From: Chloroflexota bacterium
GTDB lineage: Bacteria > Chloroflexota > Anaerolineae > Promineifilales > Promineifilaceae
Direction: 5' to 3'
Length of the DNA stretch: 14,993 nucleotides
NCBI GenBank assembly: GCA_024223125.1
Contig: JAAEOP010000481.1
Span: 1-14,993 of the forward strand
The translations under genes and the position numbers were made by a program. Of the stretch, positions 1,632 through 10,847 are shown piece by piece. Each line of letters starts with the position of its first letter. The stretch's first letter is position 1. Below the pieces are notes generated by a model. The model was not told the DNA's origin. It saw only the letters and a list, made by a program, of their open reading frames with translations, and did not search any database.

Positions 1632-1640
1632 TCAAAAATG

Positions 1641-1645
1641 AAGGA
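1641..1645 (+). promoter_or_regulatory. Ribosome binding site AAGGA that decides the lipoprotein start
   Basis: AAGGA lies 7 bases before the ATG at 1653. It would lie inside the reading frame if the earlier ATG at 1638 were used, so it favours 1653. Confidence 0.65.
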
Positions 1646-1652
1646 TATACAC

Positions 1653-3302
1653 ATGAATAGAAATCGTAATGCCTGGCTTTTGGTTTTTGTAGCAATGCTG
1701 GGATTGAGCACACTGGCTTGCGGCCTGGGGAATGGGGGCAGTGATGGGCCACCGAGAAATGCGGAAGTTGTAGAAGTGGCGGCAAATACGAGTCTGGAGC
1801 CGTGGTTGTTTACAGCCGTCTCCCAATTCAACGCCAGCGAAACGGAAACGGCCGCAGGCAAACCCGTTTACGTAATTCTAAATTCTGTAGATGCCGGTCA
1901 AGCCGTCACTGATTTAGCCAGTGGAACAAACGCTGTCTTATGGATTCCCGATGAGCAGGCGTGGGTAAATTTGTTGGCCGACCAGGGAAACAACAGCTTT
2001 CAGAGCAATTGTATGAGCGTAGCTCAAAGTCCGCTGGTCATTGGCATGTGGCGCGAAGTAGCGGAGACATTGGGCTGGCCTGGTCTGGATATTGGCTGGC
2101 TGGACATTGGCAGTCTGGCTTCTGACCCAGCCTTGTGGAACTATTACAGCGGCGGCCAACTGGGAAATGCGTTCCGACTGGGACATACCCATCCTGGCCT
2201 TTCCGGTACAGGGGCCAGTACATTGCTGGCATTAGTGCAAGCAGCCCAATCCAAAACGGAGGCTGTCAACGAAGCCGACATTCAACAGCCCATCGTGCAG
2301 GCATCTGTAGGTGCGTTTGAAGGGGGTGTCACCACGTTCAGCTCCGACACCCGTGCTCTGGGCAATTCGATGAGCCAGCGAGGCATGAATTATCTCAGCG
2401 GCGGGGTGATGTATGAAAGTGATGTGGTCAATTATGGGAATGGGCAGATTGTAGCTGTGTATCCCTTTGAAGGCACATTTATAGCTACCCATCCGGCCTG
2501 TATCAATCAAACTACAACGGCCGATCAGCAAGAAGCAGCCGGTTTGTTTCGGGATTATTTGTTGGGTGAGGAAGGGCAGCAGTTGGCTTTAGAAAATGGG
2601 TTACGGCCGGTGAGTACGGCCGTCCCCCTCAACTCTCCCTTAGACGGAGCCCACGGCGTAGACCCCAGCCAGCCAGAAATCATCTTCAACGCGCCTTCTG
2701 TATCCACCATTTATGCAGTACAGGAATTGTGGCAGGAAGCGCGTAAAGATGTGAATCTGGCCTTGCTGCTAGACACGTCAGGCAGTATGCGCGGTTCTAA
2801 AATGGAGGGTATGCAGGAAGCGGCCGTGCAATTTATAGAGCAGATGGGAGAGGATGATTACATCTCCATCATCGCCTTCAGCACTGAGCCGCAGCTGATC
2901 GTAGATCACACCCAGGTTGGCCCTAACCGGCAAAAAATTGTAAGCGCCGTTATGGCTGTGCCGGCTCAAGGGGACACAACCCTTTTTGACGCCATTGGCG
3001 ACGGCGCGGTGAAACTGCAAGAGACAACCCTGCCCCAAACGACGAATGCGATGGTGGTTTTGACGGATGGACAGGACACACGCAGCTATCGTTACGATGA
3101 AAGTTCGTCTTCGGGTATGGCGCTGGCAAATGGAATTACGGTGTTTACAATTGCTTACGGCCGTGACGCCGACGATGATGTATTACAATCCTTGGCCAAC
3201 CAGGCCAACGGTAACTTTTTTGAAGGGGATGAAGCCAGTATTGCCGCTATTTATGAGGAAATGTCGGCCGCGTTTGGGGGCAGTGTGGGAGTCGGCAGGT
3301 AG
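1653..3302 (+). CDS. Lipoprotein with substrate-binding domain and C-terminal VWA domain
   Basis: 549 residues from the ATG at 1653, chosen because AAGGA sits 7 bases upstream; the ATG at 1638 would add five residues. Residues 1-23 form a lipoprotein signal: RNR, a hydrophobic run (LLVFVAMLGL), then TLAC with Cys23 as the lipid-anchored residue. Thr at -3 is less usual than Leu. Residues about 35-345 resemble a bacterial extracellular solute-binding domain, including HTHPGLSGTGAST near 178-190. Residues about 366-540 are a von Willebrand factor A domain with a complete metal-binding MIDAS site: DTSGS with Asp374, Ser376 and Ser378, a Thr at 442-443 in GDTTLFDA, and Asp472 in LTDGQDT. Fusions of this kind are known among surface lipoproteins. 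The ligand is unknown. The role is probably metal-dependent adhesion or protein assembly at the cell surface. It shares strand and surface location with the preceding gene. Confidence 0.85.
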   Translation: MNRNRNAWLLVFVAMLGLSTLACGLGNGGSDGPPRNAEVVEVAANTSLEPWLFTAVSQFNASETETAAGKPVYVILNSVDAGQAVTDLASGTNAVLWIPDEQAWVNLLADQGNNSFQSNCMSVAQSPLVIGMWREVAETLGWPGLDIGWLDIGSLASDPALWNYYSGGQLGNAFRLGHTHPGLSGTGASTLLALVQAAQSKTEAVNEADIQQPIVQASVGAFEGGVTTFSSDTRALGNSMSQRGMNYLSGGVMYESDVVNYGNGQIVAVYPFEGTFIATHPACINQTTTADQQEAAGLFRDYLLGEEGQQLALENGLRPVSTAVPLNSPLDGAHGVDPSQPEIIFNAPSVSTIYAVQELWQEARKDVNLALLLDTSGSMRGSKMEGMQEAAVQFIEQMGEDDYISIIAFSTEPQLIVDHTQVGPNRQKIVSAVMAVPAQGDTTLFDAIGDGAVKLQETTLPQTTNAMVVLTDGQDTRSYRYDESSSSGMALANGITVFTIAYGRDADDDVLQSLANQANGNFFEGDEASIAAIYEEMSAAFGGSVGVGR

Positions 3303-4079: not shown

Positions 4080-4802
4080 TTACTCACATTCATACAGTAT
4101 AACCGATGATGCTACAATCGCGGCCGTTTCCGCTCGCAGAATCCGTTTGCCTAAAGTGATGGGCTGGACGTTGTATTGCTGTGCCAATTCAATCTCATCA
4201 GGGGTAAAGCCGCCTTCCGGGCCGATAAACAAGGCAATAGATATGGGCGTTTTCCCGGCCAAAGCGCTGCGAATACCCACATCTTTGGCTTTTTCCCAGG
4301 GGATGAGGGCCACGGCCGCATCCAACCCTGTCACCGCCACCCCAAATTTCAACGGTTCAGCCAACGTTGGCATCCGTCCTCGTCGTGATTGTTCGGCCGC
4401 TTCCATAATAATTTTTTGCCAACGAGCCAGCTTGTTCGGCTTCAGATGGTCATCCTGCACTAAACTGCGCTGTGTCACCACAGGCACAAAACGGCCGACA
4501 CCCACCTCCGTGCATTTTTGCAATACCCATTCAAACTTATCTCGCTTCAGCAGAGCCATATACAATGTGATGTGTACAGATGGTTCCCCAACCGCGGTTT
4601 GTTTTTCCTGGATTTGGGCGGTGATCTGGTGGCGGGTTACGGCCGTTATTTCCACCACATACTCCCAGCCCACATTGTCCAACACAACCAGCACATCCCC
4701 CGTCTTCATCCGCAGCACATAAGCAATCTGGCGAGCCTGTTCGCCAGTCAAAATGACGGTTTCGGCAGAAATATTATCGGGGGAAATGAAGAATCTATGC
4801 AT
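4080..4802 (-). CDS. rsmE: 16S rRNA (uracil-1498-N3)-methyltransferase RsmE
   Basis: 240 residues from the ATG at 4802, matching the usual length of the family (E. coli RsmE is about 243). Family features are MHRFFISP at the N-terminus, which sets the start; LLKRDKFEWVLQKCTEVGV at about 84-102; EAAEQSRRGRMP at about 135-145; and the SPOUT-fold SAM-binding knot with GPEGGF (194-199) and LGKRILRAETAA (217-228). The frame extends 17 codons further upstream, but those codons are made of repeat sequence and would overlap the Arm1 gene. The enzyme methylates U1498 in the decoding region of the small subunit, using SAM. It sits 34 bp after Arm1 on the same strand, with no strong Shine-Dalgarno sequence visible. 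A 9-bp inverted repeat lies just before the start. Confidence 0.95.
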   Translation of the reverse strand: MHRFFISPDNISAETVILTGEQARQIAYVLRMKTGDVLVVLDNVGWEYVVEITAVTRHQITAQIQEKQTAVGEPSVHITLYMALLKRDKFEWVLQKCTEVGVGRFVPVVTQRSLVQDDHLKPNKLARWQKIIMEAAEQSRRGRMPTLAEPLKFGVAVTGLDAAVALIPWEKAKDVGIRSALAGKTPISIALFIGPEGGFTPDEIELAQQYNVQPITLGKRILRAETAAIVASSVILYECE

Positions 4803-4810
4803 AATATTTT

Positions 4811-4866
4811 GGAGATTGGGAGATTGAACCCAATCTCTAATCTCTAATCTCAAATCTCTTATCTAT
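4811..4866. repeat. Heptamer array (AATCTCT-type) with 9-bp inverted repeat between Arm1 and rsmE
   Basis: From 4832 the plus strand reads AATCTCT, AATCTCT, AATCTCA, AATCTCT and TATCTAT, a period of seven. On the left, GAGATTGGG (4812-4820) and CCCAATCTC (4829-4837) form a perfect 9-bp inverted repeat with an 8-base loop. The array runs into the 3' end of the Arm1 gene and encodes its last residues and stop codon. The hairpin would lie in the transcript just before the rsmE start. Confidence 0.75.
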
Positions 4867-5664
4867 AACAAAAACCAACTCCCCCTCAAACAACAACTCT
4901 GTCAGCGGCCAATTGTGGTCGGCAATCAATTGAGCCATAAATTCGCGGTAACGGTTGGTTAAATCTCGGCCACCGTGCGTACTGATTGTGGGATAAGAAA
5001 GAACCAGATAGCGGGCATGGAGGGCTTCCAGCAGCGGCCGTCCTCGCCCCTTATAATTCCGTTCAAAACGGGGTATCTCCTTCAAAAACAAGGCCACATC
5101 TGCCCGCTCCTGGGGAAACTGCACGGCCACATCCTGCACCCGCGCCAACGGTTCCAATCCTTCCAGGGCAAAGTAATGATTGATGAAAGCGATACGCGGT
5201 TCATGGATGTCGTAGGCATAGAAGCGACAACTGTGTTGCAACCGTAAGTTCATCCAGCGTAAGGCTAGTGGGTTGAGGGCACAGGCAATATCCAGGAGGG
5301 TTTGCGGCCGTCCGGTAATAGCAAAAATACGTTCGTAAAAATCAGTCAAAATGGGCAGCCGTTCGCGGGTAGACAAATGGGCGTTGAGACAGTCCAGGCA
5401 AATCGCTTCGATCTGCTCTTCATCATTCGCCGCAAAAGCCGCCTCCAGACGAGCTGCTTCCACTTCATAATCGGGATCCCCTAAATAAGGAGCCATAATG
5501 CTGTGCAGTCTGGTTCGCACCGCTTTAATGGCCACCTTCGTTTTTTTATGTTGGCGTACCGCTTCCTGTGTCAATTCCCGTATCGTCGCTTCGCTAGTGT
5601 CGCTGTACTTATTGGATTGTTTTACGGCCGTGACCACCGCCTCTACATCTGCCTTTTTTGTCAT
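4837..5664 (-). CDS. FmrO/Arm-family 16S rRNA (guanine-1405-N7)-methyltransferase homologue, divergent copy (Arm1)
   Basis: 275 residues, ATG at 5664. The order of motifs matches the Arm family (RmtB, ArmA, FmrO): an N-terminal helical rRNA-binding part with RTRLH (50-54), STRERLPIL (98-106), the SAM-binding LDIACALNPLAL (124-135), YDIH (151-154), FLKEIPRFER (193-202), SYPTISTHGGR (223-233) and a terminal GELVFVI strand. In known members the SAM motif is usually DIACGLNP and the later loop SLGGRGKGM. Here the glycine is alanine and the KGM part is missing. These enzymes methylate G1405 in helix 44 of 16S rRNA and block 4,6-disubstituted deoxystreptamine aminoglycosides. Whether this copy still does so is uncertain. 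It is a paralogue of the gene at 5754-6554. Its last codons come from a heptamer repeat. Confidence 0.85.
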   Translation of the reverse strand: MTKKADVEAVVTAVKQSNKYSDTSEATIRELTQEAVRQHKKTKVAIKAVRTRLHSIMAPYLGDPDYEVEAARLEAAFAANDEEQIEAICLDCLNAHLSTRERLPILTDFYERIFAITGRPQTLLDIACALNPLALRWMNLRLQHSCRFYAYDIHEPRIAFINHYFALEGLEPLARVQDVAVQFPQERADVALFLKEIPRFERNYKGRGRPLLEALHARYLVLSYPTISTHGGRDLTNRYREFMAQLIADHNWPLTELLFEGELVFVIDKRFEIRD

Positions 5665-5727
5665 ACAAACAATGTCTATAACTCCATAAATTCGACTCTA
5701 TATTCCAAGATCATTTTGATAGCATCT

Positions 5728-5750
5728 ATTGAGAAATTAAATCTCTCAAT
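5728..5750. repeat. Short inverted repeat in the A/T-rich Arm2-Arm1 spacer
   Basis: ATTGAGA (5728-5734) and TCTCAAT (5744-5750) are a perfect 7-bp inverted repeat with a 9-base loop, just after the Arm2 stop on the minus strand. No T-run follows in either direction, so it is a poor intrinsic terminator. The 89-bp spacer is much richer in A/T than the genes. It could hold a promoter for Arm1, but I find no convincing -35/-10 pair. Confidence 0.5.
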
Positions 5751-5753
5751 CAA

Positions 5754-6554
5754 TTAAAACGTCCTGACCAGAAAAGCAAGCTCCGTATCAAATTCAAACT
5801 TTTGCACCTGCCAATGACGGCCGTGCGCTAACTGTGCAAACTGAGCTTCATAATTGACCGCCATTCCTTTACGGCGGCCACCCAAACTTTGTGCCGGGTA
5901 AGAGATGAGCAGGTAATGGCCATTTACTGCATCCAGCAAATTCGTCGTCGCCCCCTTTTCGCTTTGTTCCAGGCAGGGCAGCGTCTTGAGGATGAAGACC
6001 AAATCAGCCTTTTTTGTGGGCGGCTGGCTGATGATGTCTTGATGATGAGTACGGCCGAGTACCCCTACCAACGGCCAAAACGCAGCCAAAAAAGCCAGCA
6101 TATCTCCATAAATATCATAAGCATCATATGTCATATCGGTCGTCAGATTCATCCAGGGAATAGTCAATGGGTTTAGGCCACAGGCGATGTCTACAATCGA
6201 ATGGATGGGCGGCAGGTGTGTGAAAATGGTCCGGTAAAACTCCGCCAGAATGGGCAGCCGTTCACGGGTGGAGGCGTGGCTCTGCATTATCTGGCGGCAT
6301 GTTTGCCGGAATAGTGTGGGGTCAGACACGGCCGTCTGCAAGCGGTGTAAAGCTTTGTCATAATCAGGTCTACTTGCAAAATAGGCCCCCCCAACCTGGT
6401 GCAGCTTGTTCTTAGTGGCTTTGGTGGCTTCTTTCTGGCTGCGGCCGATTTGTAGCTGCCGCGCCCCAATACGGCGAATGAGGTCTGGGCTGACGTGCCG
6501 GTATTTGGGAGATTGGGTTACGGCCGTAAGCAATAATTCTAACTGATCAGCCAA
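5754..6554 (-). CDS. FmrO/Arm-family 16S rRNA (guanine-1405-N7)-methyltransferase, canonical copy (Arm2)
   Basis: 266 residues from a TTG start at 6554, preceded by AGGGG about 9 bases upstream. That start aligns the N-terminus (LLLTAVTQSPKY) with the start of RmtB-type enzymes. Motifs in order: KNKLH (48-52), STRERLPIL (95-103), SAM-binding VDIACGLNPL (121-130), YDIY (146-149), FILKTLPCLEQ (187-197), SYPAQSLGGRRKGM (218-231), NYEAQF (234-239) and TELAFLV near the end. All follow the RmtB/FmrO pattern as I recall it, including the GGR-KGM loop that Arm1 lacks. The expected reaction is SAM-dependent N7 methylation of G1405 in 30S subunits, which gives high-level resistance to gentamicin- and kanamycin-type drugs. 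The gene overlaps the DUF4276 gene by 8 bp, so the two are probably translationally coupled. No aminoglycoside biosynthesis genes are nearby. Confidence 0.9.
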   Translation of the reverse strand: MADQLELLLTAVTQSPKYRHVSPDLIRRIGARQLQIGRSQKEATKATKNKLHQVGGAYFASRPDYDKALHRLQTAVSDPTLFRQTCRQIMQSHASTRERLPILAEFYRTIFTHLPPIHSIVDIACGLNPLTIPWMNLTTDMTYDAYDIYGDMLAFLAAFWPLVGVLGRTHHQDIISQPPTKKADLVFILKTLPCLEQSEKGATTNLLDAVNGHYLLISYPAQSLGGRRKGMAVNYEAQFAQLAHGRHWQVQKFEFDTELAFLVRTF

Positions 6555-7230
6555 CGTCAGCCGCCCCTAACGCTTCCAACTGCGTCACCCAATCATGAAA
6601 ATGCGGACATTTTTCGCGCATGATTTGCAGTCCGATCCTCTTGGCAGCAATGTTTCCATATAAAACTTTGTTGTAATCAGGAAATAGTCTTAACAACCGT
6701 TTTGACAGCGCCGTATCTGCATGATCGTTAATCTCTTCTGGGGAATTAAATTCGGCTGCGATTTGCTCTAAAGAAGCGACATCTGCTGACCTTTGCATTA
6801 CTTGCGCCAATACACCCGGTTGGCTAAATAGTAACGCTTCAAATTCGTGCATTTGGATATATGGGGAAAAACGCGCAGCATTAAAAGAGTTGCCCATTTC
6901 TCTGCAAATATCTTGGGCAATCGCTTTTTCAATACGTATAGCTTTTTGACTGTGCGGTAATGTCGCAGTGGTATCTCTCTCCGGCCAGTTATGGGGCAGA
7001 CCATAGTAGTCTACCATTGTTGTGATGAAAGCTTCCCTGTCTTGCTTCAAGAACTTAAGAAGGACAGAACGGGCACGGCCGTAGCGAACAATGCCACCCC
7101 TCGTACCTGACTTATTCAATAAAGGTGTAAACACATCATATACACCTTTGCTCCTCAAATGCGGGCGCAATATCCTGTCTACAAAAGTTTGTTCTGTTTG
7201 CCCTTCTACAACCACAATCAGCTTATTCAT
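6547..7230 (-). CDS. DUF4276 (TOPRIM-like) protein, partner of the adjacent AAA ATPase
   Basis: 227 residues from the ATG at 7230; the open frame extends 27 codons further, but those overlap the ATPase gene more deeply. The N-terminus KLIVVVEGQTEQTFVDRIL has the VEGxTE signature with Glu9, and MVDYYGLP has Asp74, the acidic positions expected of a TOPRIM-like fold. Later family features are SPYIQMHEFEALLFS (122-136), EEINDH and YGNIAAKRIGLQIMREKCPHF. DUF4276 genes are commonly found next to COG4637-type ATPases, as here. The 8-bp overlap ATGAATAA joins the two genes, indicating coupled translation. By analogy with OLD, Gabija and PARIS it may be the nuclease effector of an ATPase-controlled defence pair. 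That role is inference. Confidence 0.85.
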   Translation of the reverse strand: MNKLIVVVEGQTEQTFVDRILRPHLRSKGVYDVFTPLLNKSGTRGGIVRYGRARSVLLKFLKQDREAFITTMVDYYGLPHNWPERDTTATLPHSQKAIRIEKAIAQDICREMGNSFNAARFSPYIQMHEFEALLFSQPGVLAQVMQRSADVASLEQIAAEFNSPEEINDHADTALSKRLLRLFPDYNKVLYGNIAAKRIGLQIMREKCPHFHDWVTQLEALGAADVG

Positions 7231-8362
7231 ACGCCGGCGTCCCACCATAGATATTCTTCTGCCATAATTCGCCCAGAGTATATTCTTCATCAAGCCAAAT
7301 TGATAACTCATTTTCAGTCAAGTGTCTAAATCGGGATTCACCGTTTTTTCGATCTACCACGATAATATCTTCAGGCATAAAGGCATCTAACAGGGTCGCT
7401 GATTGCGTAGCAACAATAAGCTGTGTTCGTCGGGATTTCTGCGGCCGTTTAACAGCTTGTTTCATCAACCCGGCAAGAATCCCCAACGCATAAGGATGCA
7501 GGCCTAGTTCTGGCTCATCCAGCAATATGGTCGTTGGTGGGTTCGGCTGCAACAAGGCTGTAGTGAGAGCCATAAAACGTAGTGTGCCGTCAGATAGCTG
7601 ACTGGGGTGGAACGGATAATCGCTGTCCTTTTGTGTCCACTCTAATAATAAAACCAAGTCCCCATTGCTAGGGCGAGGCCGAAGCAAAAAGTCATTGAAG
7701 AATGGAGCTACCAACCGAATCGTATCGCGGATTAATTCATAAATAACTGGTTCTTTCTGTTTCAAATGCCACAAAATTGAAGCCAGGTTCGCGCCATTGG
7801 AACGTAATCGTTCATTATCACGCATCGTGTACGGGCGCAGCATGGGAGCTGTGTCACTTGTATCATGAAAGTGATAGACGACCCAACTGGAAACGGCCGG
7901 GTAGACATGCCGCGCCACTCTTGTTTTTAATGAAGAATCATCCTCATCAGCATACATTTGGCTTAATTTGGCTTCTTCATGTCCTGAACCCAAATTGAAG
8001 CTCTCCTCGCCGTACGCTCCGTCAAAATACATGCGTTCGTAGCCGAATATAAAACTGTTATCTATTGTTGGTTCCAGGGAAAATTCGTAACCATTCCAGC
8101 CAAATAAGATTTGACTATTGATCTGGCTGGTTTCTTTTGGGCCTAAAAAGAGATGTGCGTCAGCACCGCCTTTTTTTCTTATCGTGGCTACCATTCGTTG
8201 TTCTACCATCTCATGAAGCAAGTGGAAAAACTCTACAAAGTTACTTTTCCCCGCCCCATTGGCACCAACCAGGATATTAAGTTCTTTGTTGAGTTCAAAG
8301 TTTTGGAGCCTACGAATTGACTTGAATCCTTCTATTGTTATGTTATGGATTGGCCCACTCAT
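7223..8362 (-). CDS. COG4637-type AAA/ABC-like ATPase (OLD/SMC-like), DUF4276 partner
   Basis: 379 residues from the ATG at 8362, preceded by AAGGA 8 bases upstream inside the end of the tgt gene; a GTG at 8383 is the alternative start. ITIEGFKSIRR (9-18) opens the fold. Walker A is GANGAGKS (33-40) with Lys39, the signature is LSDGT (256-260), and Walker B is ILLDEPELGLHP (279-290). ATQS at 338-341 stands where many relatives have a histidine. The insert between Walker A and the signature is about 215 residues, typical of the AAA_21/OLD-like group. It probably dimerises head to tail on nucleic acid and controls the DUF4276 partner, with which it overlaps by 8 bp. Context suggests mobile defence or stress function, but there is no integrase or flanking repeat to prove transfer. 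Confidence 0.88.
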   Translation of the reverse strand: MSGPIHNITIEGFKSIRRLQNFELNKELNILVGANGAGKSNFVEFFHLLHEMVEQRMVATIRKKGGADAHLFLGPKETSQINSQILFGWNGYEFSLEPTIDNSFIFGYERMYFDGAYGEESFNLGSGHEEAKLSQMYADEDDSSLKTRVARHVYPAVSSWVVYHFHDTSDTAPMLRPYTMRDNERLRSNGANLASILWHLKQKEPVIYELIRDTIRLVAPFFNDFLLRPRPSNGDLVLLLEWTQKDSDYPFHPSQLSDGTLRFMALTTALLQPNPPTTILLDEPELGLHPYALGILAGLMKQAVKRPQKSRRTQLIVATQSATLLDAFMPEDIIVVDRKNGESRFRHLTENELSIWLDEEYTLGELWQKNIYGGTPAYE

Positions 8363-8363
8363 G

Positions 8364-9515
8364 TTATTTTTCCTTTCTGCCACCTGACGGCTGTTGCCAT
8401 CCAGCAGTAAGATTTTCCATCAACTGTATCATAAAACGCAAATTGTGGATGGTAGCCAGGCGAGGGTACAGGCTGTCGTTTAGCTTAAACAGATGGTGTA
8501 GATAGCCCAATGCGTAACGGCCGCAAACCGGACAATCACAAAACTCAGAGATGGGTTGGTTGATTTTGATATGTTTTTTGTCTTTGATATACAGGTAATG
8601 GAAAAAGTCACCTTGCTCATCCAGATAATTGGCGCCGGGATCAACAGTGTAGGCATATAAACGGCCGTGTCGCGCATCGCGGGTCGGCATCGTGCTGTCA
8701 AAAATCTCATAACCCAGCCGGGTACAAGCCACTATGCTGGCCGGATGTCCAATCCCCAACCCATGGACGGTATATTGGCGGGGGATCAATTCCCGGACCT
8801 GAGCTACCATATCGGTCAGCAGATTACCGGCTGCATCCAGCGGCCAACCGCCATAACCGTAACCATCAAACCCAATTTCCAGCAGTTGTTCAGCACACTG
8901 CTGCCGTAGTTGTTTACTGGCCCCACCCTGGACGACGGCGATGAGGTACGGCCGTATCCCATCCACCCACTCTTTTTGCTCCACAATTTGGCTAAACTCC
9001 CGCTTACATCGTCTGGCCCAGGCCACCGTGCGCTGCACCGATTTCTCCTGCTCACTCCAGGGATCATCTGCGTGCGTACAATCATCAAAACAGATAATTA
9101 CATCGGAACCATACCGGAGTTGAAGCTGAACACTTTTTTCTGGCGTCAGGTTAAATTTTCGTTCCGACCCGTCAGGGCGAAAAGTGGCCCCTTTGTCATT
9201 GATGGAACCGCTTTTGGCATTCTGGCGCAGTAGTGAGTAGATTTGAAAACCACCGGAATCGGTAAAGATGGGCCGCTGCCAACCGGCCATCTGGTGCAGT
9301 CCGCCTAAAGCGCGAATGGTGGAGGAACCTGGTTTTTGCATCAGGTGGAAGACGTTCATTTGCACGGCCGTTACCCCAGCGCTTTCTAAATCGGCAGCAT
9401 CAATGGAGCGCACAACTCCTTGTGTGCCATCTGGTAAGAATACGGGGAGGGGTAGACGGCCGTGTGGCAGTTGCAAATGGGTATTGGGGTAATCAGGTAA
9501 TGGGGTATAGGTCAT
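8364..9515 (-). CDS. tgt: tRNA-guanine transglycosylase (Tgt) family protein with altered substrate loop
   Basis: 383 residues, ATG at 9515, with GGGAG about 9 bases upstream and only 3 bp after the membrane-protein gene. TIM-barrel Tgt features: GTQGVVRSI (30-38), DSGGFQ with Asp86, FDDCTHADDP with Asp144, VVQGG with Gln186, FDSTMPTRDARHGR with Asp253 as the expected nucleophile, and a zinc site Cys306, Cys308, Cys311 and His337. The C-to-H spacing of 26 equals that of the Zymomonas enzyme as I recall it. Bacterial Tgt puts preQ1 into position 34 of GUN-anticodon tRNAs. The usual GGLAVGE substrate loop is replaced by GGWPLDA (212-218), so the base accepted may differ. No queA, queC-F or queG gene is visible. 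It could also be a queuine-salvage type or a paralogue with another RNA or DNA target. Confidence 0.85.
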   Translation of the reverse strand: MTYTPLPDYPNTHLQLPHGRLPLPVFLPDGTQGVVRSIDAADLESAGVTAVQMNVFHLMQKPGSSTIRALGGLHQMAGWQRPIFTDSGGFQIYSLLRQNAKSGSINDKGATFRPDGSERKFNLTPEKSVQLQLRYGSDVIICFDDCTHADDPWSEQEKSVQRTVAWARRCKREFSQIVEQKEWVDGIRPYLIAVVQGGASKQLRQQCAEQLLEIGFDGYGYGGWPLDAAGNLLTDMVAQVRELIPRQYTVHGLGIGHPASIVACTRLGYEIFDSTMPTRDARHGRLYAYTVDPGANYLDEQGDFFHYLYIKDKKHIKINQPISEFCDCPVCGRYALGYLHHLFKLNDSLYPRLATIHNLRFMIQLMENLTAGWQQPSGGRKEK

Positions 9516-9518
9516 TGT

Positions 9519-10847
9519 TTATGTCTCCCTCAACGCTCCCGTTTTCGCTTCATGCCAAATAGTCTGGTGTAGCGCCGTGATCAATCCTAATAAAAACCAA
9601 AAGATAAACCCAGGCCGGGCGCCTAAAGCGACGGCATCCGTTAATCCATAAACAAAATATGCTACGAGACTGCTGGCAAACCCCAGGACCAAGAGACGCA
9701 CAAAAACATCGTCACTCCGCCGCCACGTGTGCCACAACATGCCCGCCATTCCCAGCCACAATGCCAGGTAGGCAACCAAACCCGGAATCCCTAAATCCAA
9801 CGCCGCCTGAAATAAATGGTTATGGGCATGGGCTATATCCGTATCTGGAGAAATGAGGAACAACGGATACAAAATATGGACAACACGGCGGAAATTATTC
9901 ATGCCCATCCCCGTAAAAGGGAAATCCTGAATACCGTACAAAGCACGAGACCAGATTTCTAACCGCCCTGCCAATGTGGAAAGACCATCCTCCTCAATAC
10001 CCACTTGGAGGAAAATCTGGGCTGTTAACTGCTGGGATTCAATCTGGGTTGCTGCCAGGAGGCTAATGAATAGTAACGCGGCCGTTCCCCCCAGCAACCA
10101 GCGCCACGAATGGGCGGCAATTAGAACGGCTCCGGTAAACAAGACGGCCGCTACCAGCCCCAGGTAAGCGCTGCGTGACTGGGTTAATATGAGTATACTC
10201 AGAAGGGTTACGGCCGTGCCGACTAACAATAACAAAAGGGGGGTTATCAATGACGGCCGTACTCGTTGGCGCAGCCGACCCACATACAACACCCCACCAA
10301 TAGCCAATGTCAGCGCTAATGGTGTCATCCACAAAAGCACCCCGCTAATTTCATTGGGATTGATTCCTTTATCTCCACCCAATCCACTCTCAATCCGGGC
10401 CGGTAACAAGGCTACCATATTTGCTAACAATGGGATTTTTGTACGAAGGCGTACTGCCAACAACCCCAACCCCGCTATACCTAAACCGGCCGCCAACAGT
10501 CCGGTCACACCCCACCACAATCGCTTATAAGAATCACCTACCCAGGTCACCGCTGCAAAAAAAACGGCAATCCCATAAATCAATCCAGCAATCTTCACAA
10601 AACTATGGGTCATATCAAAGGTGGCGTACAAACTGACCAGAACCATCAGCAGCAAACCAAATAGAGACCAGTTTAGCGGTGTTATGGGCACGAAATGGCT
10701 GGTGGCAATTTTTCGTACCAGCCAGAGAAGGGGAATGAGTAGTAACACCCATGCTCTTTGGGGTGTGGGAAACAGCACAAGGGGGAGAATAAGTATGAGC
10801 AAAACCCATTCGTATTGCAGAAGCCATTGGCAGAAACGTGTCAGCAT
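9519..10847 (-). CDS. O-antigen ligase/polymerase family membrane protein (Wzy_C/WaaL-like)
   Basis: 442 residues with about ten or more hydrophobic segments, starting at the ATG at 10847. Features of the O-antigen ligase/polymerase superfamily are the loop QSRSAYLG (213-220) with an arginine typical of substrate pyrophosphate binding, the large extracytoplasmic loop with GRLEIW (284-289) and PFTGMGMNNF (300-309), and HAHNHLFQAALDLGIPG (330-346) carrying the conserved histidines. It would polymerise or transfer lipid-linked glycan outside the membrane. No clear ribosome binding site precedes the start; ACGGACC and a run of A lie there instead. It is separated from the sugar operon by a terminator, yet its role fits that operon. 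Downstream it is packed 3 bp from tgt. Confidence 0.85.
   Translation of the reverse strand: MLTRFCQWLLQYEWVLLILILPLVLFPTPQRAWVLLLIPLLWLVRKIATSHFVPITPLNWSLFGLLLMVLVSLYATFDMTHSFVKIAGLIYGIAVFFAAVTWVGDSYKRLWWGVTGLLAAGLGIAGLGLLAVRLRTKIPLLANMVALLPARIESGLGGDKGINPNEISGVLLWMTPLALTLAIGGVLYVGRLRQRVRPSLITPLLLLLVGTAVTLLSILILTQSRSAYLGLVAAVLFTGAVLIAAHSWRWLLGGTAALLFISLLAATQIESQQLTAQIFLQVGIEEDGLSTLAGRLEIWSRALYGIQDFPFTGMGMNNFRRVVHILYPLFLISPDTDIAHAHNHLFQAALDLGIPGLVAYLALWLGMAGMLWHTWRRSDDVFVRLLVLGFASSLVAYFVYGLTDAVALGARPGFIFWFLLGLITALHQTIWHEAKTGALRET

Follow-up and report, generated by a model that had tools for sequence, protein, structure and literature searches.

FmrO/Arm-fold paralogues and a divergent tRNA-guanine transglycosylase on Chloroflexota chromosomes: a putative decoding-centre modification module

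Two paralogues of the FmrO/Arm family of 16S rRNA methyltransferases, here called A and B, are inherited vertically in Chloroflexota, and A is coupled across the phylum to a divergent paralogue of tRNA-guanine transglycosylase, TGT2. The explanation that we put forward as probable, with modest confidence, is that A and B form, together with TGT2, a chromosomal module for modification of the decoding centre, built on the Arm-family fold. The portions of PMC9311965 drawn on here describe the Arm family as serving producer self-protection or acquired resistance. Our searches of the open-licence PMC literature found nothing that links G1405 16S methyltransferases and aminoglycosides to Chloroflexi or Chloroflexota, nothing on FmrO in Chloroflexi, and nothing relevant by title on a TGT paralogue with a methyltransferase in Chloroflexi.

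The window, that is, the whole stretch of 14,993 nucleotides that was analysed, carries the following genes around the pair.

4080..4853, minus strand: RsmE-type 16S rRNA m3U1498 methyltransferase (PF04452, 166.8 bits), directly downstream of B
4837..5664, minus strand: gene B (275 aa), a divergent paralogue of the FmrO type
5754..6554, minus strand: gene A, FmrO/Arm-type 16S rRNA methyltransferase (266 aa, start codon listed as TTG)
6547..7311, minus strand: DUF4276 protein, HEC-01B type (PF14103, 193.9 bits; PADLOC HEC-01B, E 2.3e-78)
7223..8383, minus strand: AAA ATPase, HEC-01A type (PF13304, 105.5 bits; PADLOC HEC-01A, E 2.8e-133)
8364..9515, minus strand: TGT2 (383 aa), a divergent paralogue of tRNA-guanine transglycosylase (PF01702, 302.8 bits)
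9519..10847, minus strand: O-antigen ligase family protein (PF04932, 76 bits), upstream of TGT2

As the initial annotation had it, A and B are adjacent open reading frames of the FmrO/Arm family, and they score 218.9 bits (E 1e-64) and 142.2 bits (E 2.6e-41), respectively, against PF07091, for which the gathering cut-off is 27. That annotation had also placed the pair away from mobile genes and antibiotic biosynthesis, and this is borne out within the window: Pfam scans of 13 of its proteins found no transposase or integrase, and no aminoglycoside biosynthesis genes were found within the 15 kb. The sugar-type genes towards 14 kb (a DegT/DnrJ/EryC1/StrS aminotransferase, Polysacc_synt_2 and the O-antigen ligase, as named by Pfam) would belong to surface polysaccharide, not to aminoglycoside synthesis. 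Signs of producer self-resistance are absent from the 15 kb seen, though the rest of the genome may differ. PADLOC assigns the genes at 6547-8383 to HEC-01, the HEC-01A ATPase adjoining HEC-01B; they are a candidate phage-defence pair, inserted between TGT2 and A. Of 77 genomes with A, 6 have DUF4276 as its immediate upstream neighbour, the window included. Elsewhere, at 1638-3302 on the plus strand, one protein carries a solute-binding-type domain and, after it, a von Willebrand A domain.

Gene A keeps the family positions that were compared, and thus has the family signature of G1405 enzymes. Its best sequence match in the PDB is Sgm (E 5e-52), the nearest to A among solved structures, and Foldseek aligns its AlphaFold model (pLDDT 91.6) to Sgm (3lcu) with a TM score of 0.90-0.92 and an rmsd of 2.0. 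Its motifs are STRERL, DIACGLNP and SYPAQSLGGRRKGM, the last being the equivalent of SYP-GGR. In Sgm chain numbering, which is native numbering plus 7 and is used for residue positions here, A keeps H65, E114, R115, D138, D163, K206, P236, G246-M247 and E274. The first six of these are invariant across the 80 A and 45 B rows of our alignment, and G246-M247 is present in 79 of the 80 A rows, 13 of 13 reference rows and 5 of 5 plasmid rows; the motif counts leave out the fragments L029 and L061, also left out of the tree, and the references P0352, P0355, P0358 and P0360. When 20 A-type proteins from elsewhere in the phylum were aligned, all had G246-M247, and the family columns of A were kept in 20/20 except for P236 (19/20).

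We take the functional residues to be G135, D156, D182, K199 and E205 in Sgm and K20, R50, R68, K72, R211, R241 and M245 in RmtC. In RmtC numbering, the N-terminal-domain positions K20, R50 and H54 are kept in both A and B, and the R68, K72, R211 and E214 columns are conserved in neither. The R241 column holds arginine in 71 of 80 A rows from the class, 11 of 20 from the phylum and 5 of 45 B rows. The N7-G1405 core positions and the GM loop common to Sgm, ArmA and the Rmt enzymes are all found in A, which scores 227.0 bits against NF000466, the NCBI equivalog model for N7-G1405 Rmt enzymes, and so falls below its cut-off of 250. Judged from its sequence and predicted structure, A is probably an N7-G1405 methyltransferase. 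PF07091, STRER, DxAC, K206 and the GM loop are features that it shares with the producer enzymes Sgm, FmrO and Kgm; unlike these, A has no producer cluster in the window, belongs to a Chloroflexota clade of its own and lies next to TGT2.

The two genes, which had been annotated as equivalents, proved to be different paralogues in separate clades. B scores 181.6 bits against NF000466, again below 250, and its predicted fold also has Sgm as best match, from a weaker model (pLDDT 82; rmsd 11.8 over 246 residues versus Sgm) in which domain placement is unsure. Among structures, A and B alike are matched best by an Arm-family enzyme, with unrelated methyltransferases far behind, and the predictions do not point to any other methyltransferase family. 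The family motifs first reported for the pair are only partly common to it: STRERL and DIAC-LNP occur in both (as DIACALNP in B), and the KGM ending of the SYP-GGR motif is confined to A, B having SYPTISTHGGRDLT at this motif, without that ending. The methionine of the (K)GM loop is found in 0 of 45 B rows (43 have L, one V and one I), as against 97 of 98 other rows. B also has E207 after K206 in 45/45 rows, where A has mainly T, A or S, and R210 in 45/45, and has gained HEPR. Because B departs from the tested N7-G1405 core positions and GM loop, we have not filed it as an N7-G1405 enzyme. As read from the sequence, the substrate loop of B is changed and its SAM site is intact, and B probably acts either on a target other than that of A or as a partner of A.

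The second of these options can be taken further: B would then be a subunit that assists or regulates A, and only one of the paralogous pair would be catalytic, an arrangement seen in some tRNA methyltransferase dimers. B is seldom found without A (no A is visible in 3 of 46 B genomes, these being MAGs that may be incomplete), A lies directly upstream of B in 15/44 (not in 29/44; contig edges cut some loci short), and it is the catalytic loop that is altered in B. However, the SAM-site residues D138, D163 and K206 are invariant in 45/45 B rows, whereas a non-catalytic subunit need not keep them, and in many genomes B stands apart from A and adjoins RsmE. We consider such a subunit role rather unlikely. 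If A and B are parts of a decoding-centre module, as we favour, B would bind SAM and act on the 30S elsewhere or with A.

Two origins for B were tried and rejected. It is not a decayed copy, since between genomes B is more conserved than A (in pairwise comparisons of 28 core genomes, 98% of the pairs show the smaller distance for B), and it does not stem from a recent tandem duplication, A and B being 35% identical and in separate deep clades. In several public sources, proteins of the B type go under the name '16S rRNA (guanine(1405)-N(7))-methyltransferase' despite the absence of the GM loop. This may be over-annotation; if the G1405 names are wrong, they could inflate resistance counts in metagenomes.

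The coupling of TGT2 to A across Chloroflexota was observed directly in gene content and gene order. TGT2 is distinguishable from canonical bacterial Tgt (queuine tRNA-ribosyltransferase) by score, the window protein reaching 291.5 bits and two others 287.6 and 297.8 bits against TIGR00430, all below the cut-off of 306.75. Like the canonical enzyme, TGT2 keeps the catalytic and zinc regions (DSGGFQ, the FDx(A/T)xPTRDAR region and CxCxxC, in the rows that matched). Unlike it, the window TGT2 has GGWPLD where a single canonical reference, from G031, has GGLAVGE; this base-binding loop reads GGWP in 39 of 40 TGT2 rows and GGYP in the other. It is mostly an additional copy: 25 of 31 B genomes have a full-length TGT2 (284-333 bits, PF01702) alongside canonical Tgt, which in the B genomes is full-length in 26 (505-536 bits) and partial in three.

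All TGT2 genomes in our samples have FmrO. The class sample of 396 genomes divides into 70 with both, 36 with FmrO alone and 290 with neither, and the phylum sample of 350 into 67, 5 and 278, so that FmrO accompanies TGT2 in 70/70 and 67/67 genomes (13 TGT2 genomes are common to the two samples). The corresponding Fisher values, 2.9e-51 and 1.6e-66, both ignore kinship. In the class, 54 of the 70 genomes have TGT2 adjoining A on its upstream side, both genes sharing a strand; in 7 others the distance is at most 4.3 kb, and in 9 TGT2 is elsewhere. Counted from A, a TGT lies directly upstream in 46/77, some of these loci stopping at contig edges. In the phylum sample the two genes adjoin in 54/67, TGT2 preceding FmrO in 44 and following it in 10, and are further apart in 6 and elsewhere in 7. 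Since both orders occur, the link is likely to be a functional one and not that of a single frozen operon. TGT2 is not needed for A, since 36 of the 106 class genomes with A, and 5 of the 72 in the phylum sample, have kept A in its absence. When the A tree is rooted on B, TGT2 is present at the root and absent from 15 of 80 rows, which requires five changes.

To our knowledge all TGT enzymes act on tRNA, and the coupling to TGT2 is the strongest link that we found. Both points would suit a reading in which A, B and TGT2 act on tRNA: next to a second TGT, the FmrO fold would have been taken over for N7-methylation of guanine in tRNA. Against it, both the GM loop and the basic N-terminal positions of 30S-acting enzymes are kept in A, the remaining recurrent neighbours have 16S rRNA or the decoding centre as their place of action, and A also occurs without TGT2; we regard it as improbable. 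Little credence is given, too, to the idea that TGT2 swaps a guanine of 16S rRNA instead of tRNA, with A and B methylating nearby guanines of helix 44, at N7 or otherwise. We know of no transglycosylase so far that acts on rRNA.

At an E value of 1e-10 or lower, protein searches returned 2873 relatives for A and 709 for B. In the 120 matches listed for each gene, the named organisms are Chloroflexota or Chloroflexota MAGs, besides some metagenome labels. GTDB genomes scanned with the alignment of B gave 31 loci, titled as Chloroflexota lineages; 28 of these genomes have at least two PF07091 matches, some being fragments of one gene, and three (G004, G025 and G031) have a single match. PF07091 is matched in 108 genomes of the class sample, Anaerolineae to judge by the titles of related loci (106 above the cut-off), in 72 of the phylum sample and in none of 14 control genomes.

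The initial annotation had suggested a deep environmental branch of the family, and the trees agree with this, placing A and B in clades of their own apart from the actinobacterial and plasmid enzymes when ArmA, RmtB, C, F, G and Sgm are included. B forms one clade in the 147-row tree (45 rows, SH-aLRT 99) and in a 69-row tree (22 rows, 100/100; bootstrap 100). The latter leaves out ArmA, P0352, P0360 and P0244 and keeps 29 of the 80 A and 22 of the 45 B rows; the 29 A rows group at 82/73, or at 88/92 with two more rows, one of them labelled Oscillochloridaceae. The actinobacterial enzymes, Sgm among them, form a separate clade (98 in the 147-row tree, 100/98 in the 69-row tree), and the plasmid enzymes lie outside the A and B clades, grouped weakly (52; 91/36) and on long branches. 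One protein, L068, is A by score yet falls outside clade A in the 147-row tree. In the 69-row alignment a single A+B clade gives p 0.203 by the AU test, and we neither claim nor reject an origin of A and B as sister paralogues within Chloroflexota.

Over the 41 genomes with both genes, the distances of A and those of B are strongly correlated (Mantel r 0.925, a value reached by 0 of 999 permutations), as is expected under vertical inheritance. The pair looks neither mobile nor producer-linked. The acquired enzymes of Gram-negative pathogens, ArmA and RmtA-H, have the same fold and core positions as A and B, and this shared fold and Pfam family, together with database names of resistance type, could suggest that the pair was recently acquired by transfer or is the reservoir from which mobile Rmt genes came. 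The genes differ from those enzymes in several respects: plasmid matches all share less than 60% identity with A (between 26% and 38% for the 40 listed), A is not mobile here and is not nested among the mobile enzymes tested, and B lacks M245/GM. ArmA, RmtB, C, F and G are not inside the Chloroflexota branch (in the 147-row tree, and without ArmA in the 69-row tree). With no mobile genes among the 13 window proteins scanned and the Mantel correlation pointing the same way, the pair does not have the character of an acquired 16S methyltransferase, and we think both versions of this reading very unlikely indeed; the earlier proposal that the pair is a source of resistance genes is accordingly not upheld.

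The other recurrent neighbours lead to the ribosome. RsmI is the 16S C1402 2'-O-methyltransferase and the site of RsmE is U1498; C1402, G1405 and U1498 are all located in helix 44, and SmpB acts in the decoding centre. RsmE directly follows B in 24/45 B genomes (not in 21/45, with some loci cut short by contig edges), and the window protein scores 181.7 bits against TIGR00046 (cut-off 41) and lies below the cut-offs of the PRK11713 equivalog models. Of 43 loci examined, 12 have RsmI adjoining the module of TGT2 and A, and the one such protein that was checked scores 227.2 bits against TIGR00096 (cut-off 167.9). SmpB is beside A in 18 of 32 loci with FmrO and without TGT2, with one of these checked (PF01668, E 3.8e-56). 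It is these factors that suggest the decoding centre; the neighbourhood indicates this region but no particular nucleotide. RsmE and RsmI, housekeeping methyltransferases of helix 44, resemble the module in being chromosomal and recurrent neighbours, and differ from A and B in fold and chemistry; they are functional clues, not relatives. In class genomes without TGT2 (L107-L111 and similar loci), A was seen beside SmpB and an S41 peptidase.

In the mechanism that we propose, A and B would be anciently separated FmrO/Arm-fold paralogues of the ordinary Chloroflexota chromosome. A would dock on the 30S subunit and methylate N7 of G1405 in helix 44, in the way of Sgm and RmtB, as predicted from its sequence and modelled fold, and would work in a module with TGT2, whose base-binding loop is changed, and with RsmI, RsmE and SmpB; TGT2 would share the substrate of A and B. 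B retains its SAM site and the basic positions of the N-terminal domain but has lost the flipped-base loop common to A and the resistance enzymes, and for want of this loop it would most likely methylate another nucleotide or serve A as a partner. Its nucleotide would probably also lie in the 30S decoding region, near the RsmE site. The main role of the module would be decoding-centre tuning or maturation. Resistance to 4,6-disubstituted 2-deoxystreptamine drugs would then be a by-product, since m7G1405 would bring a resistance phenotype whatever the natural role of A.

That phenotype could itself be what is selected, with A (and B) kept as intrinsic resistance against aminoglycosides that other soil or sludge organisms make. 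That A has the complete family signature and a fold like that of Sgm is consistent with this, as is the blocking of 4,6-disubstituted 2-deoxystreptamine drugs by m7G1405, as given in the portions of PMC9311965 and PMC12340973 drawn on here. However, coupling to TGT2, RsmI, RsmE and SmpB and phylum-wide vertical inheritance are atypical of such defence genes, and B is more constrained than A yet is without the resistance-enzyme loop. We therefore hold intrinsic resistance to be a doubtful explanation. A housekeeping variant, the other alternative first offered beside the resistance relative, is the better of the two, given the vertical inheritance, the rRNA and decoding-centre neighbours and the coupling to a TGT paralogue.

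A chromosomal branch that spans the phylum and is tied to a TGT paralogue, RsmI, RsmE and SmpB suggests that ordinary ribosome maturation is also among the roles of the Arm fold, and it may have been the first of them. The origin of a drug-resistance fold thereby becomes testable, and the prediction is of natural m7G1405, plus a second mark by B, in abundant uncultured bacteria.

The 16S sequences themselves were also read. The search pattern includes G1405, which is hence present by construction, and only the following bases are informative; the pattern matched in 25 of 42 genomes searched, and the others may have no assembled 16S. A1408 is present in 39 of 39 16S matches read. A looser search of the 396 genomes, allowing three mismatches, gave mostly chance matches. 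In the 16S of one genome with A and B (L169, from G341, 2.2 Mb), an A1409-U1491 pair replaces C-G in helix 44. At the adjoining pair, 1410-1490, almost every FmrO genome read has G-C, and several genomes without FmrO have A-U, the exceptions being L133, which has G-C and no FmrO, and L173 (G253, with FmrO), which reads ACACT there. This pattern may follow kinship only.
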